Of a stretch of 64,000 nt of DNA, positions 9,805 through 61,024 are shown piece after piece. The notes under the pieces were generated by a model that did not search any database, was not told where the DNA came from, and was given only the letters and a program-made list of their open reading frames with translations. Numbering within the stretch: the stretch's first letter is position 1; each line of letters begins with the position of its first letter. The position numbers and the translations under genes are program-made. The DNA is from Nocardia sp. BSTN01 (lineage in GTDB: Bacteria > Actinomycetota > Actinomycetes > Mycobacteriales > Mycobacteriaceae). The stretch is from the NCBI RefSeq assembly GCF_015354405.1, contig NZ_JADKYP010000041.1:1-64000 (forward strand), written 5' to 3'.

Positions 9805-9811
9805 TCCGTCG

Positions 9812-10689: not shown

Positions 10690-10706
10690 GATCTCGCGTA
10701 CTCTGC

Positions 10707-32121: not shown

Positions 32122-32203
32122 GACAACCAACTCCACTTCATCTGCGTCGACGACAGCTCGGGCGAGGGGAATTCTCCGGCGCGAATTCAGCACCGGCACA
32201 ACA

Positions 32204-32233: not shown

Positions 32234-32317
32234 AAGCTACTATTCACGGTGTCGGCTGGCAAGAATCTCGCCGAAAATTCTCTTCTCCGCACTCCGGAAA
32301 CAGGCAGGGGCCACATC

Positions 32318-42543: not shown

Positions 42544-42563
42544 ATTTCGATTGTTTTCGAAGT
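42544..42563. promoter_or_regulatory. ArsR-type operator motif, site 2
   Basis: ATTTCGA-TTGTTT-TCGAAGT: a 7-6-7 inverted repeat with one arm mismatch, 32 bases upstream of the MFS 2 start. It shares the 14-base string ATCACATTTCGATT with site 3 at 47.7 kb. Confidence 0.62.
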
Positions 42564-42595
42564 CTCTTACAATCCCCCGAAGTAGGTGTACACGC

Positions 42596-45343: not shown

Positions 45344-46581
45344 CGCTGCACTCCGTCCGCCGCATGCGAATCCCGCGCAGCCGCAGGCGGGTCGAGCACC
45401 GCAGCGGGCGTGTCCGCCGCCACCCCGGCGAGCGAGGTCAGCGTCGCGGTCGGCACGGCCGGCAGCGACGACTCCCGCCGGCGCGGACGACTCCACCGGC
45501 GCACGATCGGCGATTCCACCGCCGAGTACAGACCCCAGGCGAGCAGGACATCGACCACCAGCAGCCCCAGCACGACCGCGAGCGCGACCGGGGTGGACCA
45601 GGTCGCCTGGATACCGAACAGCCGGACCCGATAGTGCAGCACCAGTTCGTGAATCATGTAGAACGCGAATGAGATATCGCCCAGCCACACCACGAAACGC
45701 GCCCGCCACAGCGACGGGGTGCCTCGCACATCGGCTCTTGCGCCCGCCAGGATCAGCAGCGCGATCGGCACGATGGTCACCGCGTCGAGCGCGAACAGGT
45801 ACGGCGCGTACAGCAGACCCACATATCCCAGCACCGCCAGCCCGGTCGCCGGAGCGAGGGACAGCGGCGCGCGGCGGCCCGACAACAGCAGCTTCGCCAG
45901 CAGGATGCCGAGCAGGAAGTCCAGGGTGCGCACCGGCGGGAACAGGTAGACGAACCAGAACTGGTACACCGGCACATCCGGTGCGAACGGAACCCGCGGC
46001 CGGTCGGGGAGCAATTGCGCGATCAGCGGGAGCACGACGATGACGGCGATCACCGCGATCGTCGCCGCCCAGAGCCGTTCGGCCCGGATCCGGTTCACCG
46101 CCGCCAGCAGCCAGGGGAACAGCAGATAGAAGAACGCCTCGCAGCACAGCGACCAGGCGACGGTGTTCATACTGGCGAAGTTCTGCACGATCGGCAGCCA
46201 GGTGTGCACGAGCAGCAGATTGGGAATCGCCACCCCGGTGGTGACCGTCTTTCCCGTCCACAGCAGCAGCGCCAACGCGATCGCCCAGGTGAGCACATGG
46301 TTGGGGTAGATCTTCACCGCGCGGCGGCGCCAGAAGCCCACCGTGGTGTCGCCGGGACGCGCCGACCACGCCAGCACGAAACCGCTGAGTACGAAGAAGA
46401 AGCCGACACCGGTCCACCCGGCCCGCTTCACCAGGAACGAGGCGGTGTCGGCGGCGCCGGCATCGGCGAAGAACCCCTCCAGGGATACGTGCGTGCAGAA
46501 CACGAGAAGTGCTGCGGCGAAACGCATTCCGGTCAGTGTCGGCAGGCGGGGAACCTTGGTCGGTTGCGATGTGTCGGTCAC
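45340..46581 (-). CDS. Acyltransferase-3 family membrane O-acyltransferase
   Basis: A 413-residue integral membrane acyltransferase with about ten TM helices. The N-terminal LTGMRFAAALLVFCTHVS holds the family's R/H pair (Arg about 20, His about 30), followed by GWTGVGFFFVLSGFVLAWS and the RRRAVKIYPNHVLTW motif. The C-terminal ~45 residues are cytoplasmic and Arg/Ala/Pro-rich. These enzymes acylate sugars, lipids or macrolides at the membrane. GTG at 46581 has an ideal ribosome-binding site (AGGAGGG, 7 bases upstream), so it is preferred over longer in-frame options. The neighbours are a secreted protein (coupled) and an SGNH hydrolase, a common acyl-adding/acyl-removing pair. Confidence 0.9.
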   Translation of the reverse strand: MTDTSQPTKVPRLPTLTGMRFAAALLVFCTHVSLEGFFADAGAADTASFLVKRAGWTGVGFFFVLSGFVLAWSARPGDTTVGFWRRRAVKIYPNHVLTWAIALALLLWTGKTVTTGVAIPNLLLVHTWLPIVQNFASMNTVAWSLCCEAFFYLLFPWLLAAVNRIRAERLWAATIAVIAVIVVLPLIAQLLPDRPRVPFAPDVPVYQFWFVYLFPPVRTLDFLLGILLAKLLLSGRRAPLSLAPATGLAVLGYVGLLYAPYLFALDAVTIVPIALLILAGARADVRGTPSLWRARFVVWLGDISFAFYMIHELVLHYRVRLFGIQATWSTPVALAVVLGLLVVDVLLAWGLYSAVESPIVRRWSRPRRRESSLPAVPTATLTSLAGVAADTPAAVLDPPAAARDSHAADGVQR

Positions 46582-46696
46582 TGGGCACCCTCCTGACGGG
46601 CGAAGGAAACGACGGCCCATCAAGTGTCGAAAAGGGTGCTCCGGTCGTCTTCGGGCAACGGACCGGTTCGCCGGCCCGCCCTCGGTCCGGTCCGCG

Positions 46697-47707
46697 TCAG
46701 GACCGGACCGGTGCCGCGGTCGCCAGCGCCGCGGCGAGCAGCGAGCCGAAGCGATCGGCGATCAGCGCGTCGCCCGCGGCATCCGGATGCAGGCCGTCGA
46801 CGGTGAGCGCGGCATCGCCGGCCCCGAACAGTTCCGCGCCGGAGACGAGATGCAGATTGTCGTCTCCGAGCCGCTGCAGGACCACGACCACGTCCTCGAC
46901 CAGCGTCCGGATGTCACGCAGCGTGAGGCCGTGTGGATTCGGTTCGTTCTCGCGCTCCACCCACACCGGCGGTGAGAACGCGACCACCGGAACATCCGGA
47001 TGCGCCGCGCGGATCGTCTCCAGGAATCCGGCCGCGAGCCCGCCCAGGGACCGGGCGGTGAACGGTCCGCGGATGTAGAGGTTCGGCCCCAGTTCCACCG
47101 AGATCAGGTCCGCGGGCCGGGCCGCGATGGCACGTGCGACGAACGGGTCCAGGTAGGCCTGGGCGGCGAACCCCAGATTCAGCATGCGCCAGCCGTGGGT
47201 TCGCGCGATCCGGGCCGGCCAGGTATCGCTGGGCGCCTCGGTGATCAGGCACTGGGTGAGGGAGCTGCCGTAGGTGATCCACCGCGGACCGTCGGATTCC
47301 CACGGTTCCACGGTCGCGCCCGCCGGTACCGACAGGGCTCCGACCCGCGTCACGGCCCCGCGGTGCGGCAACCACAGTTCGACCCGAGAAGGGTTGCCGG
47401 GCAAGGTCGCAACCACCTGCTGGGCGCCCGAGCCCACCGGGACGCGCTGGGTGAGGCGCCCGTCGACGAAGACGTCGACGAATCGGGGCCGCGGTTGCCA
47501 GATCGGGGTGGAGTGCACGGGCAGCGTCACCTCGGTCGCATCGGTCACCAGCCCCAGTCGCACCCCCGTCGCCACGGCCGCGTGTTCGGCCAGTTCCGGA
47601 GAGAACGCGGCCGCCAGGCGGTCCGGAGGCAACCGCCACGGCTGCCGCCACTCCCCCGCGTCGCTCACCGCGACCACGCCGTCCCAATTCACCAGATCAT
47701 CGATCAC
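46697..47707 (-). CDS. SGNH/GDSL-type esterase
   Basis: A 336-residue two-domain hydrolase. Residues 1-125 are a jelly-roll-like domain as in carbohydrate-esterase family 2 proteins (RPRFVDVFVDGRL, RVELWLPHRG). Residues 135-336 are the SGNH domain with the nucleophile in ITYGSSLTQC (about 145), the GxN block near ISVELGPNLY and the catalytic Asp/His in VDGLHPDAAG (about 308-312). No signal peptide is evident. The frame begins with GTG at 47707 without a Shine-Dalgarno sequence and directly abuts operator site 3, so either the mRNA is leaderless or a downstream GTG is used. Confidence 0.87.
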   Translation of the reverse strand: MIDDLVNWDGVVAVSDAGEWRQPWRLPPDRLAAAFSPELAEHAAVATGVRLGLVTDATEVTLPVHSTPIWQPRPRFVDVFVDGRLTQRVPVGSGAQQVVATLPGNPSRVELWLPHRGAVTRVGALSVPAGATVEPWESDGPRWITYGSSLTQCLITEAPSDTWPARIARTHGWRMLNLGFAAQAYLDPFVARAIAARPADLISVELGPNLYIRGPFTARSLGGLAAGFLETIRAAHPDVPVVAFSPPVWVERENEPNPHGLTLRDIRTLVEDVVVVLQRLGDDNLHLVSGAELFGAGDAALTVDGLHPDAAGDALIADRFGSLLAAALATAAPVRS

Positions 47708-47760: not shown

Positions 47761-48633
47761 TCAGAACAGCGCGAAAACCCGTGCGGGTCCGCCGGTTCCG
47801 CCGCCGTGCTTGGGCGCACCCACGATCACCGTCGCGCCCGCGTCGGGCACCTGATCCAGGTCGGCGAGCGATTCGACGCCGTAGCGCCCCGCCGGCAACC
47901 AGCTGCGATGCACCGGAACCGCATGGTCGCTACCTCGGTCCAGACCCGTGGAATCGACACCGATACCGACCACCCGGCGTTGCCGGATCAGGAAATCCGC
48001 GGCCTCGGCACTGAATCCCGGCCAGCGATAGACGTTGCGCCGCTCGTCGTAGTTGAGATAGGCGCCGGGTACCGAAATGCGCTGCGACCACCCCGAATCC
48101 ATCGCCACGAAGGCGCCGTCGGGCAGCGGGCCGTGCGTGGCCTCCCAGGTGCGGATGTCGGCCACGGTCACCGCGGCGGACGGATCCCGCGCCGCCCGAT
48201 CGGCGATCCGCAGTACCGCCAGCGGCGCCACCAGCTGGTCGGCGGGAATCCGGTCCACCGACAGACCACGGTCGCTGAAATGCAGGGGTGCGTCGACGTG
48301 GGTGCCGACATGTTCGTAGGTGACGATCTCGTCGCCGTTGTATCGGTTCTCCGCCATCCGGGACACCGGAATCAACTGCGGCGGTTTGCTCACCTGTGTC
48401 CACACCGGAAAGTCCGGGGTCACGGTATGGGTCAGATCGACGACCCGGCCGAATCCGCGACCACGCCCGGACGCCGCCTGCACCGGCGACGCACCCGTCG
48501 TGACGGCCCCGGCCGCACCGACCACCAAACCCGCGGCCAGCGCCGTCAAGAATCCCCGGCGAGCCGGACGGGGCGCGGCGGCGACCAGGCCGCACGGCGA
48601 CGCCACACTGTCGATCAGTTCCGGAGCACACAC
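47761..48633 (-). CDS. Tat-exported cyclase-family (kynurenine formamidase-like) hydrolase
   Basis: A 290-residue metal-dependent hydrolase. A twin-arginine-like signal (RPARRGFLTALAAG then AAGAVTTGASPVQA) is at residues 22-53. The cyclase-family metal motif is HVGTHVDAPLHF (about 108-119), preceded by VVDLTHTVTPDFPVW. The family hydrolyses amides and lactones (for example N-formylkynurenine) or cyclises polyketides in older literature. It is encoded next to a peptide-type ABC importer, so it may process an imported amide outside the membrane. GTG at 48633 with AAGGAG upstream. The last Cys-free C-terminus ends close to operator site 3. Confidence 0.85.
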   Translation of the reverse strand: MCAPELIDSVASPCGLVAAAPRPARRGFLTALAAGLVVGAAGAVTTGASPVQAASGRGRGFGRVVDLTHTVTPDFPVWTQVSKPPQLIPVSRMAENRYNGDEIVTYEHVGTHVDAPLHFSDRGLSVDRIPADQLVAPLAVLRIADRAARDPSAAVTVADIRTWEATHGPLPDGAFVAMDSGWSQRISVPGAYLNYDERRNVYRWPGFSAEAADFLIRQRRVVGIGVDSTGLDRGSDHAVPVHRSWLPAGRYGVESLADLDQVPDAGATVIVGAPKHGGGTGGPARVFALF

Positions 48634-48744: not shown

Positions 48745-50349
48745 TCAACGACTTTCGAACCGCACGGCTCCGCCTTGCGCCACCGGGAGCGTCGGCACCG
48801 CGGCGAGCAGTTCGCGCGTGTACGGGTCACGCGGGTCGGCGAACAGTTCGTCGGCCGGACCGGATTCGACCACGCGACCCGACCGCATGACCAGGATCTC
48901 GTCACTGACGTGGTGGACGACACCGAGGTCGTGGGAGATGAACACCAGTGCCACACCGAGTTCGGCTCGCACCCGCAACAGCAGATCCAGGATCTGGGCC
49001 TGCACCGACACATCCAGCGCGGACACCGGTTCGTCGCAGACGATCACATCCGGAGCGGGGGCCAGCGCCCGCGCGATCGCGACCCGCTGCTGCTGACCAC
49101 CGGACAGTTCCAGCGGACGACGAGGCAGCACCGTCTCGGACAATCCCACCGCGGCCAGGAGCCGGCGGGCGTGGCCGTCGCGGGCGGCGCGCGGCACCCG
49201 GCCCGCCTCCAGGGCCTCGGCCAGCACCCGGCGCACCGTGAACCGCGGGTCGAACGATCCGAGCGCATCCTGGAAGACCGCCTGGACACTGGTGCCCGGA
49301 GCGACGGTCAGGGAACCGGAGTCGAGCCGCTCGAGCCCCAGCAGTACCCGCGCGAAAGTGCTCTTGCCCGAACCCGATTCGCCCACCACGCCGACCACCC
49401 GGCCCGGCGCGACCACCGAATCGACTCCGTCGAGCGCGACGGTGACCCCGCCGTCGGGCTTACCGAACCGGCGGTGCGCGCCCGCCAGTCGTACGAGCGG
49501 TTCCGTCGTCGTCACCGCGGCCCGGGCGGGCAACTGCGCGGCGAGATCGAATTCGACCGGCGAGAGCCGCGCGCCCCGGGTATGCGCCGAGGGCACCGCG
49601 GCCAGCAGCAGTCTGGTGTACTCGTGTCCGGGACGGCCGAGTATTTCGGCCGTCGTGCCCTCCTCGACGATCCGGCCGTCACGCATCAACACGATCCGAT
49701 CCGCCACCTCCGCGACCACCGCCAGGTCATGGCTGATCAGCAGCACACCGGTGCCGGCATCGCGAATGTCGCGCAGCAGCGTGAGGATCTGGCGCTGGAC
49801 GGTGGCGTCCAAGGCGGTGGTCGGTTCGTCGGCGATGAGGAATTGTGGTTGCGCCGCAAGGGCACTCGCGATCAGGACGCGCTGGCGCAGCCCTCCGGAA
49901 AGCTCGTGCGGATATTGCCGCAACCGGTTGACCGGATCGGGAACTCCCACCCGTCGCAGCAGCTCCAGCGCACGGTCGGGAATCGAGGCCGCGGGGACGC
50001 TGCGGTGCACCCGCAACGCCTCGCCCAGTTCCTGCCCGACCCGCCGCAACGGATCCAACGACGCCAGCGCGTTCTGCGTGACATAGCCGACGGTGCTGCC
50101 CCGCACGTTCCGCCAGCGCCGCTGCGACCATCCGCGCGCGTCGTGGTCGCCGATGCGCAGCCGCGCCGCCCGCACGCGGCCGTCGCGCTGAGTGAGCCCG
50201 ATCAGAGCGCGCGCGGAAACGCTTTTGCCGGAACCGGATTCGCCCACCACGGCCACGCATTCACCCGCCCGCACCCGCAACGAGATGCCGTGGACGACCT
50301 CGGTCTCGCCGAAAGAGACGGTGAGATCCTCGAATTCGAGCGCTGTCAT
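48745..50349 (-). CDS. Peptide/nickel-type ABC transporter, fused double ATPase
   Basis: A 534-residue protein with two complete ATP-binding domains, equivalent to DppD plus DppF. Domain 1 (about 1-250) has VVGESGSGKSVSARALIG, LSGGLRQRVLIASAL and LIADEPTTALD. Domain 2 (about 275-534) has VVGESGSGKSTFARVLLG, LSGGQQQRVAIARAL and IVCDEPVSALDVSVQ. Single-chain double ATPases are common in actinobacterial oligopeptide or glutathione-type importers. ATG at 50349 overlaps the preceding permease gene by four bases. It is the last gene of the transporter operon before the cyclase gene. Confidence 0.94.
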   Translation of the reverse strand: MTALEFEDLTVSFGETEVVHGISLRVRAGECVAVVGESGSGKSVSARALIGLTQRDGRVRAARLRIGDHDARGWSQRRWRNVRGSTVGYVTQNALASLDPLRRVGQELGEALRVHRSVPAASIPDRALELLRRVGVPDPVNRLRQYPHELSGGLRQRVLIASALAAQPQFLIADEPTTALDATVQRQILTLLRDIRDAGTGVLLISHDLAVVAEVADRIVLMRDGRIVEEGTTAEILGRPGHEYTRLLLAAVPSAHTRGARLSPVEFDLAAQLPARAAVTTTEPLVRLAGAHRRFGKPDGGVTVALDGVDSVVAPGRVVGVVGESGSGKSTFARVLLGLERLDSGSLTVAPGTSVQAVFQDALGSFDPRFTVRRVLAEALEAGRVPRAARDGHARRLLAAVGLSETVLPRRPLELSGGQQQRVAIARALAPAPDVIVCDEPVSALDVSVQAQILDLLLRVRAELGVALVFISHDLGVVHHVSDEILVMRSGRVVESGPADELFADPRDPYTRELLAAVPTLPVAQGGAVRFESR

Positions 50350-51203
50350 CGCGCGGTCCTTCCTTCCGCCAGGCGCTGCCAGTACCGGCTCAGCACCGTG
50401 ATCGAGACGACCGAGGCGACCACGAACAAACCGGGGAACACCCCGATCCACCAGGCCCGGCCGACGAGATTGCGTCCCTCCGACAGCATCGAGCCCCATT
50501 CGGGTGTCGGCGGTATCACGCCGAGTCCGAGAAAACTCAGGCCCGCACCCGCCACGATCGCGGTGCCCACACCGAGCGTCGCCAGCACCACCAGCGTCGT
50601 CAGCGCATTCGGCAGGACGTGGCGCAGCGCGATCCGCGATCGACTCTGTCCCAGAGTGCGCGCGGCCTCCACATATCCGCTGTGGCGCACCTCGAGCGCC
50701 TGCGACCGAACCAGCCGGGCGTGGTACGGGATGGTGGCCAGCCCGATGGCGATGGCCGAATTACGCGCTCCCGGCCCGGATACCGCGATCACCACCAGCG
50801 CCAGCAGCATCCCGGGAAAGGCCAGCATGGTGTCGGTCAGCCGCATCAGCACCGCGTCCAGCAGCCGCGACGGGCCCGAGGCGAACAGTCCGATCACCGC
50901 GCCCAGGCCGAATCCGATCGCCGTCGCCGCCACCCCGATGCCCAGTGAGATCCGCGTGGCGTGCACGGTTCTGGCGAAGACGTCGCGGCCGAGTTGGTCG
51001 GTGCCGAACAGGTGCTCTCCGCTCGGCGGCCGCAGGGTCTGACGGCGGGCCATCGCGGTGGGGTCCACTCCGGTCACCAGATGCGGCGCCAGCGCGGCGA
51101 CGACCAGGAAGGCGAAGACGATCGCGGCGATCCATACCGGCCACGGCACCGAACGCAGTCGACTCCCGGGATTTTCCCGCAGGGCTTCGATCCATCTGCT
51201 CAC
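50346..51203 (-). CDS. Peptide-type ABC transporter permease (DppC-like)
   Basis: A 285-residue inner-membrane permease with six TM helices. It has the OppC/DppC N-terminal segment with GTDQLGRDVFART and the ATPase-contact EAA loop EAARTLGQSRSRIALRHVLPN (about 173-193). It pairs with the DppB-like permease encoded just upstream (4-base overlap) and with the fused ATPase downstream (4-base overlap). Confidence 0.94.
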   Translation of the reverse strand: MSRWIEALRENPGSRLRSVPWPVWIAAIVFAFLVVAALAPHLVTGVDPTAMARRQTLRPPSGEHLFGTDQLGRDVFARTVHATRISLGIGVAATAIGFGLGAVIGLFASGPSRLLDAVLMRLTDTMLAFPGMLLALVVIAVSGPGARNSAIAIGLATIPYHARLVRSQALEVRHSGYVEAARTLGQSRSRIALRHVLPNALTTLVVLATLGVGTAIVAGAGLSFLGLGVIPPTPEWGSMLSEGRNLVGRAWWIGVFPGLFVVASVVSITVLSRYWQRLAEGRTAR

Positions 51204-52228
51204 GGCGTCCCCTTTCCGACGGGTTCGGCATCGGCCACGACCGCAACGGCGACGTCCGCCGGCGCGGCGGCCGGCACGCGCACCGACCGCGCGCGGGGCG
51301 CACGCAGCCGCGGATCGAGAACCAGATACAGCAGATCCACCACCAGATTGATCACCACGAACAGCACCGCTGCCAGCAGCACCACCGCGCTCACCACCGG
51401 AAAGTCCTTGGTGGTCACCGCGTTCACGGTGATCCGGCCGATACCGGGCCGCGCGAACAGCGTCTCCACCAGGACGGTCCCGCTGAACAGCGTGCCGAGC
51501 ATCCAGCTGGTCATGGTGACCGTGGCCAGCGATCCGTGGCGCAGCGCGTGGCGCACGCGCAGGCCGGGCTCGGACAGTCCGCGCGCCCGCAGTGTCGCGA
51601 CGAACGGCTGTTCCAGGGTCCGGTCCAGATTCCCGCGCAGCACCTGCCCCAATTCGCCCGCCATCGGTACCGCCAGGCTCAGCGCCGGCAACACCAGACT
51701 CGCCGCGCCGTGGTCACCGGCGACCGGGAAGACGTGCAGACGGAAGGCGAATGCCGTGATCAGCAGCAGTCCCAGCCAGAACGGCGGCAGCGATACCGCG
51801 AGCAGTTCCGCGCCGGACACCGCCGCACGCACGAACCGGCCCCGGCCGGCCGTCGAGGTCGCCGCCAGCACGGCCACCAGGACGGCGGGCACCAGGGCGC
51901 ACAGCGCCAGCTCCGCCGTGGGCCGAAGTTGGCTCAGCAGCAGGCTTTTCACGTCCTCCTGCAGCTGATAGGAGCGGCCGAGATCGCCGGTGAGCGGACG
52001 CACCACGGTGTGCAGATACTGCCGCCACACCGGCTGATCCAGTCCCAGATCGGCGGCGATCTGCGCCCGCACGCGCGGTGACGCGCTGGTCTGGGCGCCC
52101 AGCAGGGTGTCGACCGGATTTCCCGGCGCCAGCCGCAGGGCGAAGAAGGTCAGGGTGACCGCGCCCAGCAATACCAGCGCACCGGTCCAGATCCGGTGAA
52201 CGAGGATGCGAAGCACCTGCCCGGTCAC
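51200..52228 (-). CDS. Peptide-type ABC transporter permease (DppB-like)
   Basis: A 342-residue permease. The N-terminal TM helix (RIWTGALVLLGAVTLTFFALRLAPGNP) and the loop RARGLSEPGLRVRHALRHG, which carries the EAA-type coupling motif in a shortened form, are typical of OppB/DppB. Three or four TM helices follow the EAA loop. The C-terminal ~40 residues are a hydrophilic Ala/Pro/Val-rich extension. It overlaps the substrate-binding protein gene and the DppC gene by four bases on each side, so all four transporter genes are translationally coupled. Confidence 0.93.
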   Translation of the reverse strand: MTGQVLRILVHRIWTGALVLLGAVTLTFFALRLAPGNPVDTLLGAQTSASPRVRAQIAADLGLDQPVWRQYLHTVVRPLTGDLGRSYQLQEDVKSLLLSQLRPTAELALCALVPAVLVAVLAATSTAGRGRFVRAAVSGAELLAVSLPPFWLGLLLITAFAFRLHVFPVAGDHGAASLVLPALSLAVPMAGELGQVLRGNLDRTLEQPFVATLRARGLSEPGLRVRHALRHGSLATVTMTSWMLGTLFSGTVLVETLFARPGIGRITVNAVTTKDFPVVSAVVLLAAVLFVVINLVVDLLYLVLDPRLRAPRARSVRVPAAAPADVAVAVVADAEPVGKGTP

Positions 52229-53877
52229 GAGTGCTCCACCCAGGTGTCGTAGAAGTTGCTCCAGCCGTTGGCATCCAGCCCGAAGCCGTGCACATGCGCG
52301 GCCGCGGTGTAGACACCGGTGAAGACGTAGATCGGCAGGGCGTAGGCCTTGTCGAGGATCAACTGCTGCGCCTGCTTGTAGGCGGCGGCCCGCTGCGCGG
52401 GATCGGCGGTGGCACGGCCCTGCTGCAGCAGCGCGTCCAGTTGCGGGTCGGCGACCTTTCCGTTGTTGGCGCCACCCTTGGCGACCGAGCGGTCAGACTG
52501 GTACAGCGTGGCGAGCACGTCCGCATCGGATCGGCCCCAGCTCGCGCCGACCAGGTCGTAGCCGTTGGCGGCGATGATCGTGGTGTAGGTGCCGTAATCG
52601 ACCGGGGTGAGCCGCAATTCGATGCCGACCTTCTTCAGATCCTGCTGCACCGCCTGGGTGACCAGATCCCGGGACTCCCGCACCAGATTCGACGCGTACG
52701 GCAGCACCAGGCCGAACCGGTGACCGTCCTTGATGCGATAGCCCTGGGCGTCGCGCCCGGTGTAGCCCAGTTCGTCGAGCAGGCGGTTGGCCTTCGCCAC
52801 GTCGTAGCCCGGCCGCTTCTCCACCGAGGCGTCGTAGCCGGGAGTCGAGGCGGACAGTGGTCCGTACGCGCGCGGGTAGACCCCCAGATAGATGCTGTCG
52901 ACGATGCCGTCGATATCGATGGCCGCACTCACCGCCTGCCGCGCCCGGATATCGGAGAACGGCTCCTTCGACTGATTGAAGAAGAACGTGTACGGCGCCC
53001 CCGGCGCATCACCGCGAACGATCCGGTACGCCGGATCCTGCTGCAGCGCTTGATAATCGGCTGGCGGCGTACCGGCGATCACATCGACCTGCCCACCCCG
53101 CAGCGCGCCCGTGCGCACCGCGTCCTCGGTGAGATACCGGACCGACAATTTGTCCAGATACGCCGGACCGGTGTGCCGCGCGGTCGCCGGCGGCCAGGCG
53201 TAGTCCGGATTCCGCTCGAATTCGATGCCCTGGCCGTGGGTCACACTCACCTCCCGGAACGGCCCGCTCCCCACCGCGTAGCGGCCGCCTCCGCACAGCT
53301 CGTCCGGGTGTTCGGCCAGCACCTTCGGTGAGTAGAACCCCAGGTAGGCGGTGCTGGCCGCCTGCAGGAACGGCGAATAGGGCTGAGTGAAGCGGACTCG
53401 CACGGTGTGGTCGTCGACGATGTCCGTGCCGGCGTAGGGCCCGAGGAGACTCGCCGCGTACTGCGATTTCGTGGCCGGCGCGAGAATATGTTCGAAGTTG
53501 GCTTTCACGGCCGCGGCATCGAACGGTGCGCCGTCGAAGAATTTCACATCCGGGCGCAGTGTGAACACATATTCTTTACCGTCGGCAGAAATCTTCCACG
53601 CGCTCGCCAGCCACGGAGCGAAGGTGCCGTCGGATTTCTGCGCGACGAGCGAGTCGAATACGTTGCGCTGCAGTTCTCCGACGATGTCACCCGGGCTGAC
53701 ATGGGGATCCATGCAGGTCGCGTCGCGATAGGAGGCGTAGGTCAGCGTACCGCCGGAAACCGGCGTGGCGGATTCGTCATCCGCGCCGGAACCGCCGGAC
53801 GAACAGGCTGTGACCAGCGCGACCACCACCATTACTCCCGCGATCGATCCGGAAATCGACCGACTCTTTTTTCGCAT
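52225..53877 (-). CDS. Peptide-type ABC transporter substrate-binding lipoprotein
   Basis: A 550-residue SBP family 5 protein. The lipobox VTACSS gives Cys at about residue 25 after a basic, hydrophobic signal. The mature protein shows GGTLTYASYRDATCMDPH, VFDSLVAQKSDGTFAPWLASAW and FTLRPDVKFFDGAPFDAAAVKANFEHIL, the conserved family-5 region. Such proteins bind peptides, nickel chelates, opines or glycosides; the ligand is unknown. ATG at 53877 and GTG at 53880 are adjacent start choices. As first gene of the operon it sets the importer's specificity; the downstream exported cyclase-family enzyme suggests an amide or cyclic ligand (inference). Confidence 0.92.
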   Translation of the reverse strand: MRKKSRSISGSIAGVMVVVALVTACSSGGSGADDESATPVSGGTLTYASYRDATCMDPHVSPGDIVGELQRNVFDSLVAQKSDGTFAPWLASAWKISADGKEYVFTLRPDVKFFDGAPFDAAAVKANFEHILAPATKSQYAASLLGPYAGTDIVDDHTVRVRFTQPYSPFLQAASTAYLGFYSPKVLAEHPDELCGGGRYAVGSGPFREVSVTHGQGIEFERNPDYAWPPATARHTGPAYLDKLSVRYLTEDAVRTGALRGGQVDVIAGTPPADYQALQQDPAYRIVRGDAPGAPYTFFFNQSKEPFSDIRARQAVSAAIDIDGIVDSIYLGVYPRAYGPLSASTPGYDASVEKRPGYDVAKANRLLDELGYTGRDAQGYRIKDGHRFGLVLPYASNLVRESRDLVTQAVQQDLKKVGIELRLTPVDYGTYTTIIAANGYDLVGASWGRSDADVLATLYQSDRSVAKGGANNGKVADPQLDALLQQGRATADPAQRAAAYKQAQQLILDKAYALPIYVFTGVYTAAAHVHGFGLDANGWSNFYDTWVEHS

Positions 53878-54270
53878 CACACATTCTTTCGTCGGCGCGC
53901 CGGGCGCGCATCGGACGGGCTACGGGGAATTTCAGTGAAGTCGACGACAGGTCGGCACACAGCTTTTCGCCGAAGGCGGATTCCAAACATTGACAAAAGC
54001 TAACCGCTGCGAGCGCGGTAATTCGACCGGCAAAAGTCCAGTACAGAAATGCGAGGACGGCCCACAGCCGGGGACGGAACCCGGTCTCCGGTACGGGTCG
54101 ATGTCCGGAAAACACGCCGCTGGACCCGAACGCAATAGGGCCGTGGCCGGAAGACCGATATTCCCGGTCGAAACAGAATGATGTGCGATCGCAATTCGAT
54201 CGTTTTCTTCCCGCCTGGCTCGCACCAATGCTGCTGCCCCAGGGTTCGGCGACCCGAGGAGGCCGACACG
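53878..54270. other. Divergent intergenic region between the importer and aromatic operons
   Basis: About 390 bases carrying promoters for both flanking operons. A TTGACA hexamer lies at about 53993. Short inverted elements such as CGATCG-N5-CGATCG (about 54187-54203) are present but weak. No gene is seen. Confidence 0.45.
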
Positions 54271-55326
54271 ATGACCGTCTACGTAGCGCACACCCGCGGC
54301 GATATCGACGAAAACCGGTTGCAGGACCTGCTGTCCCGGATCCGGCAACTGCCCGCCGCCGCGACCACCCGGCGCACCCGCGACGGCTTCCTGATCGTGG
54401 CGTGGGGCGCCTCCGGTCCCGTCCTGGAGGCCGAACTCACCCGCAGTGAGTACGTGACCCGCGTCCTGCCGGAAGGGACGTCGTTTCCGCTCGCGGCGCG
54501 GGCGCATCGACCGGAGGGGTCGGTGGTGCACGTCGGCTCGGTGCCGGTCGGCGACGGCCGGCCGGTGATCATCGCCGGGCCGTGCTCGGCCGAAACCCCG
54601 GAGGTGCTGCTGGAAACGGCCCATCGGGTCAAGGCCGCCGGCGCGGCCATGCTGCGCGTCGGCATCTTCAAACCGCGCACCTCCCCCTACAGCTTCCACG
54701 GCCTCGGCCACATCGGGCTGCCGCTGCTGCGCGAGGCGCGGGCGCAGACCGGACTTCCGATCGTCACCGAAATCCTCGACGCCCGCGATATCGAGCTGAT
54801 CGGCGATGCCGCCGACGTCCTGCAGGTCGGCGCGCGCAATATGCAGAACTTCAGCCTGCTCACCGAATTGGCGCTGACGGGACGGCCGGTGCTGCTCAAG
54901 CGCGGCATGTCGGCGACCGTGCACGAATGGCTCAACGCGGCGGAATATCTGCTCGCGCACGGCAACGACAACGTGATCCTCTGTGAGCGCGGGATCCGCA
55001 CGTTCGAACGCTCGACCCGGTTCACGTTGGACCTCAACGCCGTTCCGGTGGTCAAGGAACTGTCCCACCTGCCGATTCTGGTCGACCCGAGCCACGGCAC
55101 CGGCGCGACGCGATATGTGCCGCCGATGTCGGCCGCCGCGCTCGCCGCCGGTGCCGACGGACTGATCGTCGAGGTACATCCGCGTCCGCACGAGGCGCTC
55201 TCCGACGGCGCACAGTCGCTGGATCTGGCGCAATTCGACCGCTTCGCCGCGGATCTGCGCGGGCTCGCGAGCGCTCTCGGCCGCGAATTCGTCTCCGCCC
55301 CCGAGCTGCTGGCCGAACTGTCATGA
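54271..55326 (+). CDS. DAHP synthase, type I-beta (AroF-like)
   Basis: A 351-residue 3-deoxy-D-arabino-heptulosonate-7-phosphate synthase, the first shikimate-pathway enzyme. Residues 1-75 form a ferredoxin-like regulatory domain as in Thermotoga-type enzymes (MTVYVAHTRGDIDENRLQDLL). The barrel has IIAGPCSAE (about 111), LRVGIFKPRTSPYSF, VGARNMQNF, LLKRGMS and VDPSHGTGA. Mycobacteriales normally use a plant-like type II AroG for general metabolism. A type I-beta copy next to an ammonia-lyase therefore suggests pathway-dedicated supply of tyrosine or phenylalanine. ATG 54271 follows AGGAGG by 8 bases; it overlaps the lyase gene (ATGA). Confidence 0.93.
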   Translation: MTVYVAHTRGDIDENRLQDLLSRIRQLPAAATTRRTRDGFLIVAWGASGPVLEAELTRSEYVTRVLPEGTSFPLAARAHRPEGSVVHVGSVPVGDGRPVIIAGPCSAETPEVLLETAHRVKAAGAAMLRVGIFKPRTSPYSFHGLGHIGLPLLREARAQTGLPIVTEILDARDIELIGDAADVLQVGARNMQNFSLLTELALTGRPVLLKRGMSATVHEWLNAAEYLLAHGNDNVILCERGIRTFERSTRFTLDLNAVPVVKELSHLPILVDPSHGTGATRYVPPMSAAALAAGADGLIVEVHPRPHEALSDGAQSLDLAQFDRFAADLRGLASALGREFVSAPELLAELS

Positions 55327-56951
55327 CCACCACGAGTACCGAACTGGTTCTGGACGGCAACGGTTTACATCTCACCGACGTGGCGGCGGTGGCGCGCCGC
55401 GACGCGCCGATCTCGGTCAGCATCGCACCGGTGGCCCAGGCCGGGATGTCGGAATCGGTGCTGCTGAAGAACGAGCTGCTGGAAACGGGGATACCGATCT
55501 ACGGCGTCACCACCGGATTCGGCGACAGCGTCAACCGGCAGATCGCACCGTCGAAAGCGGCTGCGCTGCAGCGCAACCTGATCCTGTATCACCTCAACGG
55601 CGTCGGGCCGATCGCGACCCCGGAGGTGGCCCGCGCCACCATGCTGATCCGGGCGAACTGCCTCACCCGCGGGCCGTCCGCGGTCCGCCCCGAGGTGGTG
55701 GCGACGTTGCTGCGGCACCTCGACGAGGACATCCTGCCGTTGATCCCCGAACGCGGATCACTCGGCGCCAGCGGCGATCTGGTGCCGCTGTGCTACGTCG
55801 CGGCGGCGCTGATCGGTGAGGGTGAGGTGCGCTACCGCGGCGCGACCCGGCCGGCGCTCGACGCGTTGCGGGAGGCGGGCATCGCACCGGTCGCACTGGG
55901 CCCGAAGGAGGGCCTGGCGCTGATCAACGGCACCTCCTTCACCGCGGCCTTCGCGGCGCTGGCGCTCACCGACGCGGCCGAGCTGGCCTACGCCGCCGAC
56001 GTCGCCACCGCGATGACCTGTGAAGCACTGCTGGGCAATGCTTCTCATTTCCACCCGTTCGTGCACGCCAACAAGCCCCATCCGGGTCAGGGCGCCAGCG
56101 CCGCGCTGATCCGGGAACTGCTCGCCGGTTCGAAGCTCACCACCAGTTACGAGGAGATCCTGGTCCGCCGCGACACCCTGGACGGCCGCGGGTTCCTGCT
56201 GCTGGACCACCGCATCCAGGACAAGTACTCGGTGCGCTGCGCACCGCATGTCAACGGCGTGCTGCGCGACAGTCTCGAGTGGACCCGCAGGTGGGTCGAG
56301 ACCGAGATCAACTCCTCTACCGACAATCCGCTCTTCGCCTGGGAGACGGGCGAATTGCATCACGGCGGCAATTTCTACGCCGGCCACGTCGGACAGGCCA
56401 TGGACAGCCTGAAGATCGCCGTGGCCAGTCTCGCCGATCTGCTGGACCGCCAGCTCGCCCTGGTGGTGGACGAGAAGTTCAACGCGGGCCTGACCGCCAA
56501 TCTCGTCGCGCCGCTGCCGGAGTCCGACCGGCAGTCCGGTCTGCACCACGGGTTCAAAGGCATGCAGATCGCCGCGTCCGCGGTCACCGCCGAGGCACTC
56601 GGTCTCAGCGGTCCGGCGACCGTGCTGTCGCGCTCGACCGAATCGCACAACCAGGACAAGGTCAGCATGGGCACGATCGCCGCCCGCGACGCGCGGACCG
56701 TCATCGAGTTGACGCGGCAGGTCACCGCCATCCACCTCATCGCGCTCGCGCAGGCGATCGATATCCGCGGCGCCGCGCAGGCCGCGCCCGCGGTGCGCCG
56801 GGTCCACGAACTGATTCGCGCGCACGTCCCCTTCACCGACCGTGATCGCCGCATGGACCGCGATATCGAGCGCGTCGCCCGGCTGATCGCCGACGGATCG
56901 GTGCGTGCCGCCGCCGGCGTCGCCGATCCCCTTTTCATCCCCCACGGTTAG
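55323..56951 (+). CDS. MIO-type aromatic amino acid ammonia-lyase (probably tyrosine ammonia-lyase)
   Basis: A 542-residue HAL/PAL/TAL-family enzyme that removes ammonia from an aromatic amino acid to give an acrylate. The self-forming MIO triad is A149-S150-G151 in GSLGASGDLVPL. Catalytic Tyr60 is in IYGVTTGFGDS. The substrate-selectivity pair is His90-Leu91 in LILYHLNGVG, the combination known from tyrosine ammonia-lyase (His-Leu) rather than PAL (Phe-Leu) or HAL (Ser-His). SHNQDKVSMG and NSSTDNPLF are conserved. L-tyrosine to p-coumarate is therefore the likely reaction. A mutase activity giving beta-tyrosine cannot be excluded. It sits between DAHP synthase (overlap) and a CoA-ligase-like gene (11-base gap). 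Confidence 0.92.
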   Translation: MTTTSTELVLDGNGLHLTDVAAVARRDAPISVSIAPVAQAGMSESVLLKNELLETGIPIYGVTTGFGDSVNRQIAPSKAAALQRNLILYHLNGVGPIATPEVARATMLIRANCLTRGPSAVRPEVVATLLRHLDEDILPLIPERGSLGASGDLVPLCYVAAALIGEGEVRYRGATRPALDALREAGIAPVALGPKEGLALINGTSFTAAFAALALTDAAELAYAADVATAMTCEALLGNASHFHPFVHANKPHPGQGASAALIRELLAGSKLTTSYEEILVRRDTLDGRGFLLLDHRIQDKYSVRCAPHVNGVLRDSLEWTRRWVETEINSSTDNPLFAWETGELHHGGNFYAGHVGQAMDSLKIAVASLADLLDRQLALVVDEKFNAGLTANLVAPLPESDRQSGLHHGFKGMQIAASAVTAEALGLSGPATVLSRSTESHNQDKVSMGTIAARDARTVIELTRQVTAIHLIALAQAIDIRGAAQAAPAVRRVHELIRAHVPFTDRDRRMDRDIERVARLIADGSVRAAAGVADPLFIPHG

Positions 56952-56962
56952 GAGCCGTACCG

Positions 56963-58402
56963 ATGTTGCTGCTACGCGATACGCGCACGCGCGCGAAGAA
57001 CGAGGCCCTGCTCGACGAACACACCCGCCTGGTTCGCTCGGTTCTCGACGGCACCGCCGACCTCGACCGGGTCCACGCCGCGAAACTGCTGCGCACCGTC
57101 CGGGCCGCCGCCGGCTCCCCCATGTACGAGGGACGGCTGCCGGCCGATCTGCTCGCCGAGATCGACACGGGCACAACAATTTCCGACGAGCGGGTGCTCA
57201 CCGAGATCCTGCCGTCGCTCCCGCTGCTCGGCAAGCGCGAACTGGGCCGGTTCGGGGCCGAGGCGTTCACCCGGCCGCTGAACGAATTCCTGCACTACTA
57301 CGAATCCTCCGGCACCACCGGCGATCCCGCCGCCGCGCCGAAAGCACTGGACGATCTGCTGGTCAACACCGTCAACATCGGCGAGATGTGGGCCCGGCTG
57401 CTGCAGCCGAAGGATATCGCGCTGATCCTGATCAACGCCCCGTTCGCCCCCGCCGCCTACCAGTTCGAGAAGGCGCTGGAATACCTCGAGGTCATGTCGC
57501 TGCGGCCTTGGGTGGACAACATCACCGGCGACTACACCCGGGTGCTGCGGCTGGTCGACCAACTCGGCGCGAACGTCTTCGTCGGCCCCCCGTCGCGGCT
57601 GCTGGAAATGGTGCAGTTCGCCCACCGCAACGATCTGCCCGCTCCGCGCTTCGATCGGCTGCTGCTGATGGCGGAGCAGACCGGTCCCAGTTTCCGCCGT
57701 CACCTCGAACGCCTGACCGGCGCGCACTCGTACGTGTCCTCCTACGGCTCCTCCGAGACCGGAACACCCGCGGTCACCTGTGAGCGGGGACAGCTCCACC
57801 TGCAACCGCAGAGCTTCCTGCTGGAGCTGGCCGACGACAACGGAATTCGCCGCATCGGCAACAGCTCCGATCGCGGTGAACTGGTGCTGACCACGCTCGA
57901 TCTGCCCGCCCGGCCGCTGCTGCGCTACCGCACCGGCGATCTCGTCGAGATCGACGCGACCCCGTGCCCGTGCGGTGTCGCCACCCCGGTCCTGCTCACC
58001 CAGGGACGTTCCCAGGACCTTCTGGTGCTGGACCGCAACGGTATTCGGCAGAACGACCTCGAGGCTGCGGTGTGGGAACAGCCGCTGCCCGCGGCGACGG
58101 TCTTCAACTACATGGTCGTCGTGCGCGGCCGCCAGGTCGTGTTCCTGGTCACCTACGACGGCGACCCCGCCGGTCCGTGGACCGATGTGCTAGCCGGCCG
58201 GTTGCGCGCGCTGTTCGGCCGCGAGGAGGTGACCGTGCGCCCGGTGCCGGTCCTGCCGCCGCTGGCCTCTCTCGGCCAGTACCTCGGCTGGAAGCTCTCG
58301 CGGGTCCTCGACCTCGACGACGAGAAGAACTGGGACCGGTTGCCCGCCCCGATCGACGCCGTGGTGCGGCAGACGATCGCCGAACTCGCACCCGGTGCCT
58401 GA
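56963..58402 (+). CDS. Phenylacetate-CoA-ligase-like adenylate-forming enzyme
   Basis: A 479-residue member of the ANL superfamily, PaaK branch. The ATP-binding loop is YYESSGTTGDPAAAPK (about 112-127). The second motif is YGSSETGTP (about 260), the adenylate-binding Asp is in LLRYRTGDLVEID (about 322), and GRSQDLL leads to the hinge. A CPCG pair (about 334-337) is as in PaaK-type ligases that bind zinc. Next to an ammonia-lyase the natural substrate would be a cinnamate or coumarate, activated as AMP or CoA ester. Whether a CoA thioester is made is unknown. It has a good ribosome-binding site (GGAG) and is 14 bases ahead of the amide-forming gene. Confidence 0.9.
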   Translation: MLLLRDTRTRAKNEALLDEHTRLVRSVLDGTADLDRVHAAKLLRTVRAAAGSPMYEGRLPADLLAEIDTGTTISDERVLTEILPSLPLLGKRELGRFGAEAFTRPLNEFLHYYESSGTTGDPAAAPKALDDLLVNTVNIGEMWARLLQPKDIALILINAPFAPAAYQFEKALEYLEVMSLRPWVDNITGDYTRVLRLVDQLGANVFVGPPSRLLEMVQFAHRNDLPAPRFDRLLLMAEQTGPSFRRHLERLTGAHSYVSSYGSSETGTPAVTCERGQLHLQPQSFLLELADDNGIRRIGNSSDRGELVLTTLDLPARPLLRYRTGDLVEIDATPCPCGVATPVLLTQGRSQDLLVLDRNGIRQNDLEAAVWEQPLPAATVFNYMVVVRGRQVVFLVTYDGDPAGPWTDVLAGRLRALFGREEVTVRPVPVLPPLASLGQYLGWKLSRVLDLDDEKNWDRLPAPIDAVVRQTIAELAPGA

Positions 58403-58416
58403 GGAGACGACGACTC

Positions 58417-60240
58417 ATGTCCGCAATCACCGGCTGGCTCGACCGCGACCGCGATCTGCGCGAGCACACCACGACGGTCCGGGCCATGTCCGACGCACTC
58501 GCCCACCGCGGGCCCGACGGCGGCGGCATCTGGCTGGAACAGCGAATCGCGCTGGGCCGCAACGTCCTCGCGGTGGCCGATCTGCTCGACAACGGGCAGC
58601 CCGTCGTCACCGGCGAGGCCGGACGGCCGATCGCGGTGCTCACACTGTCCGGCGAGATCTACAACACCGCCGAACTCCGCCACGAACTGAGCGTCCGGGG
58701 CCACGCCTTCACCGGTGCGACGGACCCGGACGCCGAGGTGGTGCTGCACGCCTACCTGGAGTGGGGCGCCGACGCGCTGCGCCGCCTCGACGGCATGTTC
58801 GCCTTCGCCGTCTGGGACGTGCGCCGCGGCGAACTGCTGCTGGCCCGCGACCGGCTGGGCATCGAACCGCTCTACTACGCCGAACACCCCGGCGGGCTGC
58901 TGTTCGGCTCGGAACCGAAAGCGTTGCTGGCCAACGAGTTGTTCCGGCCCCAGGTGGATGTCGAGGGACTGATCGACATCTTCACCGTGGCGATGCGGCG
59001 TCCCGGTGACGCGGTCTATCGCGGACTGCGCGAGGTGCGGCCGGGCTGGATCGTGCGCGCCGATCACAACGGCCTGCACCATCACCGGTACTGGCAGCCG
59101 GTCAGCGCACCGCACACCGACGATGTCGACACCACGATCGCCACGCTGCGCGAGCTGCTCACCGATATCGTCGAGCGGCAGACCCGCACCGGCACGGCCG
59201 CCGGGCTGCTCTCCGGCGGCCTGGATTCCAGCGTCATCACCGCCTTGGCGGCGCGGGCGCGCGGCGACGCGAAACTGGCCACCTATTCGGTCGACTTCGC
59301 CGGCAGCGACACCGATTTCACCCCCGACGCCCTGCACGTCAGCCGGGACGCGCCGTACGTGCGGGCGGTGGTGGACCATGTCGGCACCGACCACACCGAG
59401 GTCCTCCTCGACACGCCCGCCCTGCTGGACGAGATGGGCGAAACGCTGCGGGCGCGCGACATCCCCGGCGTCGGCGATCTGGATGTCTCGCTCTACCTGC
59501 TGTTCCGGGAGGTCCGCCGCTACGCGGACGTGGTGCTGTCCGGAGAAGGCGCCGACGACATCTTCGGCGGATACCCCTGGTTCGCCGCCGAGGCCACCGC
59601 GTCCAGCGGCAGTTTCCCGTGGGCCGCGGGCAACACCGACCGCAACGCGATGCTGTCGCCCGAACTGCGCGCCCATCTCGACCTGGACGCGGCGGTGGTG
59701 GACCGGCATCGCGAGGCCGTCGCCGAACTGGCCCCGCTCGCCGGTGAGGAGGGCCCGGACCGGCGCATCCGGGAGGTCTTCCATCTCGAACTCACCCGCT
59801 TCCTGCCGTTCCTGCTCGACCGCAAGGACCGGATGAGCATGCGCACCGGGCTGCTGGTCCGGCTGCCGTTCTGCGATCACCGGCTCGTCGAATATCTCTG
59901 GAACGTGCCGTGGGATCTCAAGCGCCACGGCGGCCAGGAGAAGGGAATCCTGCGCGCGGCGGCCGAGCCGTGGCTGCCACCGCAGGTCGCCAAGCGGCCC
60001 AAGAGTGGCTTCCCGTTCGGCCAGAGCCCGCACTATCTCGCCGCGGTGCGCGAGGCCACCCGCGCCATGCTGGCCGACCCGACCGCCCCCGCGCTGGCGC
60101 TGCTGAACACCGGCGCGCTCGCCGAACTCGCCGAGGGCGATCGCTGGCACAGCGGCACCTTCACCCCGCCGCCCTGGCTGCCCCGCGCCCTGCAGCTCAA
60201 CACCTGGCTGCGCGACTACCGCGTCGAGGTGCGGCTGTAG
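58417..60240 (+). CDS. Asparagine-synthetase-like ATP-dependent amide synthase without Cys nucleophile
   Basis: A 607-residue AsnB homologue. The N-terminal glutaminase-like domain (1-205) keeps its fold motifs (HRGPDGGGIW, LSGEIYNTAELR, FAFAVWD). The processed protein would begin S-A-I-T-G rather than the universal C-G-I-x-G, so the catalytic Cys for glutamine hydrolysis is absent. The C-terminal synthetase domain is intact: ATP-pyrophosphatase loop LLSGGLDSSVI, SGEGADDIFGGYPWF and RKDRMSMRTGLLVRLPFCDH. The ATG at 58417 has GAGGAG 10 bases upstream and no in-frame upstream start restores a Cys. The same loss occurs in beta-lactam and carbapenam synthetases, which use a substrate amine. It probably joins an amine to the acid activated by this operon. 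Confidence 0.9.
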   Translation: MSAITGWLDRDRDLREHTTTVRAMSDALAHRGPDGGGIWLEQRIALGRNVLAVADLLDNGQPVVTGEAGRPIAVLTLSGEIYNTAELRHELSVRGHAFTGATDPDAEVVLHAYLEWGADALRRLDGMFAFAVWDVRRGELLLARDRLGIEPLYYAEHPGGLLFGSEPKALLANELFRPQVDVEGLIDIFTVAMRRPGDAVYRGLREVRPGWIVRADHNGLHHHRYWQPVSAPHTDDVDTTIATLRELLTDIVERQTRTGTAAGLLSGGLDSSVITALAARARGDAKLATYSVDFAGSDTDFTPDALHVSRDAPYVRAVVDHVGTDHTEVLLDTPALLDEMGETLRARDIPGVGDLDVSLYLLFREVRRYADVVLSGEGADDIFGGYPWFAAEATASSGSFPWAAGNTDRNAMLSPELRAHLDLDAAVVDRHREAVAELAPLAGEEGPDRRIREVFHLELTRFLPFLLDRKDRMSMRTGLLVRLPFCDHRLVEYLWNVPWDLKRHGGQEKGILRAAAEPWLPPQVAKRPKSGFPFGQSPHYLAAVREATRAMLADPTAPALALLNTGALAELAEGDRWHSGTFTPPPWLPRALQLNTWLRDYRVEVRL

Positions 60241-60325
60241 CCGCACCCGGCCCGTACCCACCACCGGCCCCCGTCGAGAACCGATGGTGCGGACCGGTTC
60301 CGGGAGAGGAAAGGAAAAGGAAAAG

Positions 60326-61024
60326 ATGAGGAAAATGATCGCGGCGAGCGCACTGCTGGCCACCACACTGAGTGTCGCGCCGGCGCTCGCCCACGCCGAT
60401 CCGGCCGAGGCCGGGGCGGTGAACTACACCGCCACCACGACTCCGACGTCGACGATCATCCGCACCGACAGCGGTTCGCTGACCGACGAGGCCGGCGTCT
60501 TCAGGCTCAAGGCGGCCGACGGCACCGTGCTCGCGGGCACCGAATTGTCCTTCCGGGTGGACGATTTCGTCTTCCCGATCGCCGCGGACATCTCGGGCCA
60601 CACCGCGACCCTGACACCGCAACTGGACCTCGCGCATGCGACATACCGCCCCGTCGCACTGCCGTACGAGGATCAGGCGCCGTGGAAGACGCCCTACGAT
60701 CGCGAGCAGGCCGCCTGGTCCCGCCTGACCAGCACGATCGGGGCGGGCGCCACGATCGGCACCCTGATCGGCGGGCTCAGCGGCGGCGCGATCGGCTGCC
60801 TGCTCGGCGGCATCGCCGGAGCCACCGTCGCCTCCGCGACGATCGTCGGCCTGTTCGGCCCGTTCGTTCCGGCGGCGGTGGTGGGCTGCGTCGGCGGCAT
60901 CGTGGCGATCGGTGCCCTCGGCACCCTGATCGGTCAGCTGCTGGTGACGGCACCGGTGGCGATTCTGGCCGCGGCGCAATACTTCACGACCATCAACCAG
61001 CCGTTCACCAAACCGGCGGCATAG
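60326..61024 (+). CDS. Secreted protein with glycine-zipper-like hydrophobic region
   Basis: A 232-residue exported protein. The signal peptide is MIAASALLATTLSVAPALAHA (about 4-24, cleavage after AHA). The mature N-half (25-135) is hydrophilic with beta character (FRLKAADGTVLAGTELSFRV). The C-half (about 145-222) is a Gly/Ala-rich hydrophobic stretch (GAGATIGTLIGGLSGGAIGC and similar) resembling a glycine-zipper or membrane-inserting region. A purine-rich AAGGAAAAGG precedes ATG 60326. It follows the amide-synthase gene by 85 bases and may or may not belong to that operon. I do not know a function; similar secreted proteins are frequent in Nocardia-type genomes. Confidence 0.8.
   Translation: MRKMIAASALLATTLSVAPALAHADPAEAGAVNYTATTTPTSTIIRTDSGSLTDEAGVFRLKAADGTVLAGTELSFRVDDFVFPIAADISGHTATLTPQLDLAHATYRPVALPYEDQAPWKTPYDREQAAWSRLTSTIGAGATIGTLIGGLSGGAIGCLLGGIAGATVASATIVGLFGPFVPAAVVGCVGGIVAIGALGTLIGQLLVTAPVAILAAAQYFTTINQPFTKPAA

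Follow-up and report, generated by a model that had tools for sequence, protein, structure and literature searches.

This analysis concerns a stretch of 64,000 nucleotides from Nocardia sp. BSTN01 (positions 1 to 64,000 of contig NZ_JADKYP010000041.1, hereafter the window), which belongs to a genome of 7.79 Mb in 206 contigs, and in particular four plus-strand open reading frames (ORFs) that we verified at positions 54271-60240:

54271-55326, plus strand: DAHP synthase (DAHPS), class I, PRK08673 type, 351 amino acids
55323-56951, plus strand: predicted tyrosine ammonia-lyase (TAL), an enzyme of the 4-methylideneimidazole-5-one (MIO) kind
56963-58402, plus strand: PaaK-like adenylating ligase (LIG), with a predicted role in aromatic-acid activation
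58417-60240, plus strand: AsnB/TsnB9-type amide synthetase (ASNB), 607 amino acids, N-terminal Cys replaced by Ser

DAHPS and TAL overlap by 4 bases, and only 11 bases separate TAL from LIG and 14 separate LIG from ASNB. The longest ORF of DAHPS opens at 54178; the ATG at 54271 is preceded by GAGGAGG, and GAGGAG is found just upstream of the ASNB start codon (58417). An earlier, sequence-only reading of the window had named the same four families, places and strand. The ORFs and the Pfam, NCBIfam and fold checks agree with it, LIG being under its Pfam cut-off, and the family assignments support the logic that it proposed, from DAHPS through TAL and an acid-activating ligase to an AsnB-type amide synthetase. 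DAHPS matches Pfam DAHP_synth_1 (259 bits) and NCBIfam PRK08673 (430 bits), and it scores 328 bits against the BagF/FevY model of NCBIfam, below the cut-off of 700. We propose that its role is to provide extra shikimate flux.

Scanning genome contigs with an alignment of five LIG sequences yielded 34 loci, in which gene presence was taken from tblastn and flank homologues were counted at 50 bits or more within flanks of at most 10 kb, less where a contig was short. TAL and ASNB lie near LIG in 21 of these loci, four from Nocardia and 17 from other genera (13 from Streptomyces, the others from Amycolatopsis, Saccharothrix, Frankia and Streptacidiphilus). In the 17 non-Nocardia loci the three genes are within about 3 kb of one another, and their linkage is more than chance. 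The sequence-only reading had suggested a search for co-occurrence of all four families, which bears out the TAL-LIG-ASNB set in these 17 loci but DAHPS in just a few of them, as a class I enzyme in two and as a class II enzyme in four. The class II enzyme was verified with Pfam in L050 and assigned by clustering in L051, L052 and L059; the ORF caller, based on GC content at third codon positions, sometimes called ASNB or LIG on the wrong strand, and its family clusters are approximate (cluster F3 merged different proteins). To judge from these counts, DAHPS is an optional part of the cluster.

LIG and ASNB occur without TAL in two distantly related loci of the 34, L073 (Thermobacillus, Bacillota) and L074 (Nocardia sp. 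SYP-A9097, the same place as L035). Both have an FkbO/Hyg5-type chorismatase near LIG-ASNB and a gene with a glutathione S-transferase fold nearby, and L074 has a class II DAHPS in addition. These sequences suggest a parallel cluster in which a different aromatic acid would be handled by the same logic. The pairing of LIG and ASNB with a source of aromatic acid is thus conserved, with TAL in the window and 21 loci and chorismatase in L073 and L074, and this conservation speaks in favor of the interpretation developed below. LIG is alone in the remaining 11 loci.

TAL matches PF00221 (Lyase_aromatic) at 555 bits. The MIO triad ASG is kept in all 22 TAL copies, as SLGASGDLV or SVGASGDLV, and the same 22 copies have YHL, with His90, at the substrate switch. 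The rule that reads this switch from His versus Phe comes from work on the Rhodobacter TAL. In MIO relatives from genomes without LIG, five of which were read out of 11, Phe occupies the switch in four and His in one. Because His is found in 22 of 22 copies of TAL and Phe in four of these five relatives, the residue favors Tyr, not Phe, as the substrate; the "Tyr (or Phe)" of the sequence-only reading can accordingly be narrowed to its first half. TAL relatives at an E value of 1e-100 or better were found in 13 of 396 genomes drawn across the phylum, the window genome counted, 11 of the others at 58-60% identity to the window TAL and one at 42%. The 11 genomes with 58-60% relatives gave no LIG match of more than 34% identity, so TAL alone is not a cluster marker. 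In 12 genomes that have LIG without an adjacent TAL (those of L073, L074 and 10 of the 11 LIG-only loci, L066 being left out), the best MIO relative is 43% alike. As a side observation, the MIO ammonia-lyases of L082-L090, L091 and L092, 58-60% identical to the window TAL, have a Phe-Leu switch like that of phenylalanine ammonia-lyases in four of the five read, and no LIG or ASNB match was found within 1.5 kb of them (all 11) or within 10 kb (the five fetched).

LIG reaches 25.7 bits against Pfam AMP-binding, under the cut-off of 29.9. It was recognized as PaaK-like through NCBIfam models, all of them below cut-off (69 bits of a required 800 for the BagE-type bagremycin synthetase model), through sequence relatives in the PDB and through its predicted fold, which groups with PaaK, NatL2, AjiA1 and ClxA. 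The model has the PaaK fold and the adenylation motifs are intact; this fold group includes CoA ligases as well as CoA-free ligases, and the comparison re-examined Foldseek hits only, families missing there not being excluded. The nearest named relatives, at 97-98% identity, are in Nocardia cerradoensis, N. aobensis, N. kruczakiae and N. mikamii. Some LIG match is present in 53 of 151 Nocardia genomes; it reaches 97% or more in the window genome and four others, 59% in two more and 39% in one, the remainder being lower. Of 181 plasmid records that matched LIG, none did so at 60% identity or more.

Pfam finds Asn_synthase (289 bits) and GATase domains in ASNB. The synthetase half looks complete: the pyrophosphate loop reads SGGLDSS in the window and SGG[LI]DSS in 23 of 23 relatives, and the synthetase-site residues E377 and K509 are invariant in an alignment of 18 rows. 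The nearest solved structure is that of TsnB9, and the model of ASNB has an overall fold of the TsnB9 type. The glutaminase half differs. The N-terminus reads MSAITG, with Ser2 where AsnB has its nucleophilic Cys and where TsnB9 has Cys2, which cleaves the donor glutamyl hydroxamate. The Cys is missing in the window protein and in 11 of the 23 relatives fetched; its position is taken by Gly in L049, and L073 and L074 have no such start. The window protein has RNV in place of HRR in the R49 region, and the Cys-bearing ASNB of L070 is also altered around this region. Measured against the paralogue L040, the glutaminase domain of L073 and L074 is more diverged than the synthetase domain, with 27% versus 34% identity (L073) and 22% versus 32% (L074), respectively. 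From these sequences, the glutaminase appears disabled in the window lineage. The sequence-only reading was silent on the missing Cys, which bears on its point that the enzyme might make only asparagine.

Our tentative explanation is that the core is a carrier-free aromatic-acid amide cassette, in which ASNB links a supplied amine with a carboxylate, within a larger specialized-metabolite cluster. From the gene identities, the linkage, the Tyr-type switch, the intact adenylation motifs of LIG and ASNB and the lost Cys, all read from sequence or models, we infer all the substrates, whether LIG or ASNB acts first, which amine is used and what the product is. DAHPS would feed the shikimate pathway, and TAL would convert L-Tyr into p-coumarate and NH3. 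LIG may adenylate the coumarate and pass it to CoA or directly to an acceptor, by analogy with ligases of the PaaK kind in benzoxazole and bagremycin biosynthesis. The C-terminal ATP site of ASNB would then adenylate the carboxylate, either coumarate or a coumaroyl conjugate, and form the amide. Since the glutaminase appears disabled in the window lineage, a supplied amine (or free ammonia), and not glutamine, would most likely be the source of the nitrogen. A P450, a luciferase-like oxidoreductase and acyltransferases, listed below, could decorate the product before its export. A broader proposal, possible but doubtful, is that a single modular, carrier-free amide system comes in a TAL-LIG-ASNB and a chorismatase-LIG-ASNB version, in which an interchangeable supplier provides the PaaK-like ligase with aromatic acid and a TsnB9-like enzyme with a decaying glutaminase is now a true acid-amine ligase; it would extend over Actinomycetota and at least one genome of Bacillota.

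Several observations weigh against the amide cassette with a supplied amine. TAL is full length in 20 of the 21 fetched loci, but in L067 (Streptomyces inusitatus, 9749-11443) only its first 168 or so residues are present and run in the same frame into LIG, which reflects either a truncation and fusion by deletion or an assembly fault. In a tree rooted on L074, the 11 loci that have LIG and lack ASNB form a clade within the TAL+ASNB group, so LIG does not need ASNB in order to work. The Cys is retained in 12 of the 23 ASNB relatives, and glutamine use is therefore plausible for part of the family. On a tree of 22 rows, from which four near-copies were omitted, two parsimony changes are enough to explain the Cys state and just one is forced by well-supported branches, which does not demonstrate many independent losses. 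Moreover, Pfam GATase_7 still matches the SYP-A9097 copy (34 bits, over a cut-off of 25). In four Nocardia pairs, the ratio of nonsynonymous to synonymous substitution rates (dN/dS) is 0.10-0.13 for the glutaminase domain and 0.03-0.09 for the synthetase domain, with few changes. The glutaminase domain is hence under purifying selection in Nocardia and, its dN/dS being far below 1, keeps some role; the ratio is slightly higher each time, which does not amount to a clear relaxation of selection. As for TAL, its best PDB sequence match is a tyrosine aminomutase, so that mutase activity is conceivable.

Two of these observations lead to other explanations. Other N-terminal nucleophile hydrolases use Ser, and the purifying selection on the glutaminase domain would fit a replacing Ser that acts as the nucleophile and leaves ASNB glutamine-dependent. 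We consider this very unlikely, as the HRR motif of the R49 region is altered along with the Cys, L049 has Gly at the position and L073 and L074 lack the start altogether. The aminomutase match, in turn, would fit an MIO enzyme that yields beta-tyrosine, on which ASNB would act in the manner of a beta-lactam synthetase. The profile scores favor a lyase over an aminomutase, with 714 bits against the BagA/FevW TAL model (cut-off 1000) and 406 against the aminomutase model (cut-off 501), both below cut-off. ASNB is closer to TsnB9 and AsnB than to beta-lactam or carbapenam synthetases, no substrate for an intramolecular lactam is evident, and a beta-lactamase-fold protein encoded in the window is nearest to esterases. 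On these grounds we regard the aminomutase route as highly improbable.

A further alternative starts from the family resemblance of ASNB, which scores 429 bits against the model of glutamine-hydrolysing asparagine synthase, over the cut-off of 267. ASNB could make an amino-acid amide block, asparagine or 3-methylasparagine, that LIG would acylate with coumarate. Genes at 4077-7097 of L047 (Streptomyces griseofuscus), for the E chain of methylaspartate mutase and an L-amino-acid ligase, point the same way; they stand upstream of TAL-LIG-ASNB, separated from it by a regulator gene, and are a hint that the amine part could be amino-acid-derived in S. griseofuscus. We judge this alternative rather unlikely. 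It is also unlikely, if less so, that ASNB uses free ammonia, in the extreme that released by TAL, to make a primary amide, either p-coumaramide or that of an acid formed later. A change of the Cys in AsnB-type enzymes spares ammonia-dependent synthesis, TAL yields one NH3 per coumarate, and the TAL gene is two upstream of ASNB. PMC13418202 also describes TsnB9/SaHAT relatives that amidate aryl acids directly. The strongest argument to the contrary is L073, where ASNB is Cys-less, yet the genome has 0 TAL matches, so TAL ammonia is not a general donor. In addition, 12 of the 23 relatives keep the Cys, and LIG would be left without a role in amide formation.

In comparison with known systems, the supplied-amine cassette has partial counterparts. 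The PaaK-like amide and ester ligases NatL2, AjiA1 and ClxA share about 21-24% identity with LIG; we know of no TAL partner for any of them. The nearest described set is the DAHPS/TAL/PaaK-like trio of the bagremycin and ferroverdin clusters (bag/fev) of Streptomyces, whose NCBIfam models match the window DAHPS, TAL and LIG (BagF, BagA and BagE, respectively) below the cut-offs given above. The gene table of PMC6692506 lists in consecutive rows fevY, for a DAHP synthase, fevW, for a PaaK-like bagremycin synthetase, and fevV, for a TAL. Unlike the route proposed here, bag/fev joins p-vinylphenol to 3,4-AHBA (3-amino-4-hydroxybenzoic acid), and the word "asparagine" has 0 occurrences in the main text of PMC6692506. 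The saccharomicin cluster (sam) of Saccharothrix espanaensis shares a TAL (sam8) and an acyl-CoA synthetase-like gene (sam7). According to the accessible portion of PMC3469384, saccharomicin contains an N-cinnamoyl taurine amide, the amide step is tentatively given to the penicillin-amidase-like Sam36, and the cluster has ten glycosyltransferase genes; that portion names no AsnB-type step, whereas the window has ASNB. For ASNB, the closest counterparts are the ATP-dependent hydroxyamidotransferases TsnB9 (trichostatin A) and SaHAT (benzohydroxamic acid), which amidate free acids. According to PMC13418202, TsnB9 amidates trichostatic acid, and SaHAT, which is nearly identical to it, activates benzoic acid in its free form and not as benzoyl-CoA. 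A product of the glycocinnamoylspermidine type (cinodine/coumamidine) was dropped as a candidate, no glycosyltransferase being found among the genes profile-scanned at 26.2-64 kb, where a few small ORFs were unscanned.

In the literature searched, which left out most subscription papers, there was no report that combines a TAL with a PaaK-like ligase and an AsnB-type enzyme; the sequence-only reading had likewise recognized no characterized cluster. Altogether, the cluster family is real and conserved and, it appears, undescribed; it is made of known kinds of enzymes. If our explanation is true, it would be an orphan family making hydroxycinnamoyl or hydroxybenzoyl amides in Streptomyces, Amycolatopsis, Frankia and Nocardia, among other genera, with a core free of nonribosomal peptide synthetase (NRPS) or carrier protein. 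Its members would be natural AsnB-type synthetases at several stages of change in the glutaminase (Cys kept, Cys changed to Ser or Gly, domain strongly diverged), offering a direct test of how an ammonia-transfer enzyme turns into an amine ligase. Amide ligases of such a type are useful biocatalysts, and the Streptomyces homologues provide tractable hosts.

The core is probably one end of a cluster that, by comparison of loci, spans about 28.7-60.2 kb (some 31 kb) and includes the following genes, for which counts refer to the 17 non-Nocardia loci:

28718-29938, minus strand: cytochrome P450 (PF00067); homologues at 54-70% identity in 14 of 17
30095-30937, minus strand: LuxR-type response regulator, possible cluster regulator; homologues at 32-45% beside the core
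31135-32319, minus strand: luciferase-like (F420/FMN) oxidoreductase of the LLM kind (PF00296; TIGR03841 over cut-off); 11 of 17
32249-33556, plus strand: class C beta-lactamase-fold esterase/transferase (PF00144; PDB esterase 7pp3, 282 bits)
33607-42042, minus strand: type I polyketide synthase (PKS) with ketoreductase (KR), two carrier domains and thioesterase (TE)
42551-43828, plus strand: major facilitator superfamily (MFS) exporter; 54% homologue beside the core in L050 only, of 17
43828-44478, plus strand: nitroreductase-family flavoprotein; 65-69% identity in 7 of 17
45340-46623, minus strand: membrane O-acyltransferase (Acyl_transf_3); 10 of 17
46697-47707, minus strand: GDSL acyltransferase/esterase like SsfX3 (SsfX3_N; PDB 3skv, SsfX3, 122.9 bits); 7 of 17
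47761-48633, minus strand: "putative cyclase" hydrolase (PF04199); 7 of 17
48745-50499, minus strand: ATP-binding cassette (ABC) ATPase with two ABC_tran stretches (PF00005); 5 of 17
50346-51203 and 51200-52228, minus strand: two ABC permeases of the oligopeptide/nickel type (PF00528); homologues near the core in Streptomyces loci
52225-53880, minus strand: ABC substrate-binding protein, family 5 (PF00496, 288 bits); homologues beside the core in L056, L057, L059 and L067

Homologues of more than nine of these genes (28.7-53.9 kb) accompany TAL-LIG-ASNB in other genera, so the cluster is larger than the four genes that the sequence-only reading had taken as the whole pathway; given the P450, the oxidoreductase, the acyltransferases and the transporters, its "simple aromatic amide" is also unlikely as the product. 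Parts of the ABC transporter are present in 6 of the 17 loci, and homologues of the beta-lactamase-fold protein (49-58%) in five (L046, L049, L051, L055 and L058) as well as in the chorismatase-type L074. Gene order varies among genera, which indicates shared membership rather than plain synteny. In the 11 LIG-only loci, no homologue of the LLM oxidoreductase, acyltransferase, GDSL protein, cyclase, nitroreductase or ABC parts was found at 50 bits or more within 10 kb; their P450s are merely 30-37% alike, and the other matches are scattered and weak or common (MFS at 29-31% in two loci; ArsR at 42%, LuxR at 52% in L072 and beta-lactamase-fold at 25% in one each). The linkage of LuxR, a common family, is hence weak evidence. 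N. mikamii, N. cerradoensis and N. kruczakiae share the 28.7-60.2 kb block in collinear order; the flanking genes are collinear too, so Nocardia alone cannot set the boundaries.

The PKS qualifies the earlier statement that carrier proteins of the PKS or NRPS type are absent, which holds within 54271-60240 and fails in the wider context. In the first ketosynthase (KS) of this PKS, Gln replaces the active-site Cys (TVDTGQSSS), and both acyltransferase (AT) domains carry YASH. We take this combination to mean a decarboxylating loading module followed by one methylmalonyl extension with KR and TE. A PKS chain started with coumarate was rejected, as the Gln KS and the YASH ATs read as a short branched hydroxy-acid apart from coumarate. 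The enzyme is conserved in three other Nocardia, but its membership in the cluster is uncertain because only L070 of the 17 loci has a match (47%) within 10 kb of the core. One KS searched against 13 genomes gave many matches among those listed, which could not be placed relative to the core. The PKS looks like a small stand-alone diketide synthase within the cluster.

Apart from the core, the LIG-only loci (L060-L066, L068, L069, L071 and L072), whose LIG relatives are 55-59% identical and which have neither TAL nor ASNB, read as another uncharacterized compact cassette. A P450-cluster gene follows LIG in 11 of 11 by clustering, nine have a protein of about 113-135 amino acids resembling the vicinal oxygen chelate (VOC) family, although the L031 copy of this protein gave no Pfam match, and some have a small protein of about 160 amino acids without a Pfam match. 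L031 and L033, from the Nocardia genus search, are of the same kind. On the other side of the core, ASNB is followed at 60284-61024 (plus strand) by a gene for a 246-amino-acid protein that begins like a signal sequence and has hydrophobic stretches rich in Gly and Ala. It gave no match in Pfam and NCBIfam scans, and its matches among the 34 LIG loci are confined to four Nocardia sister species.

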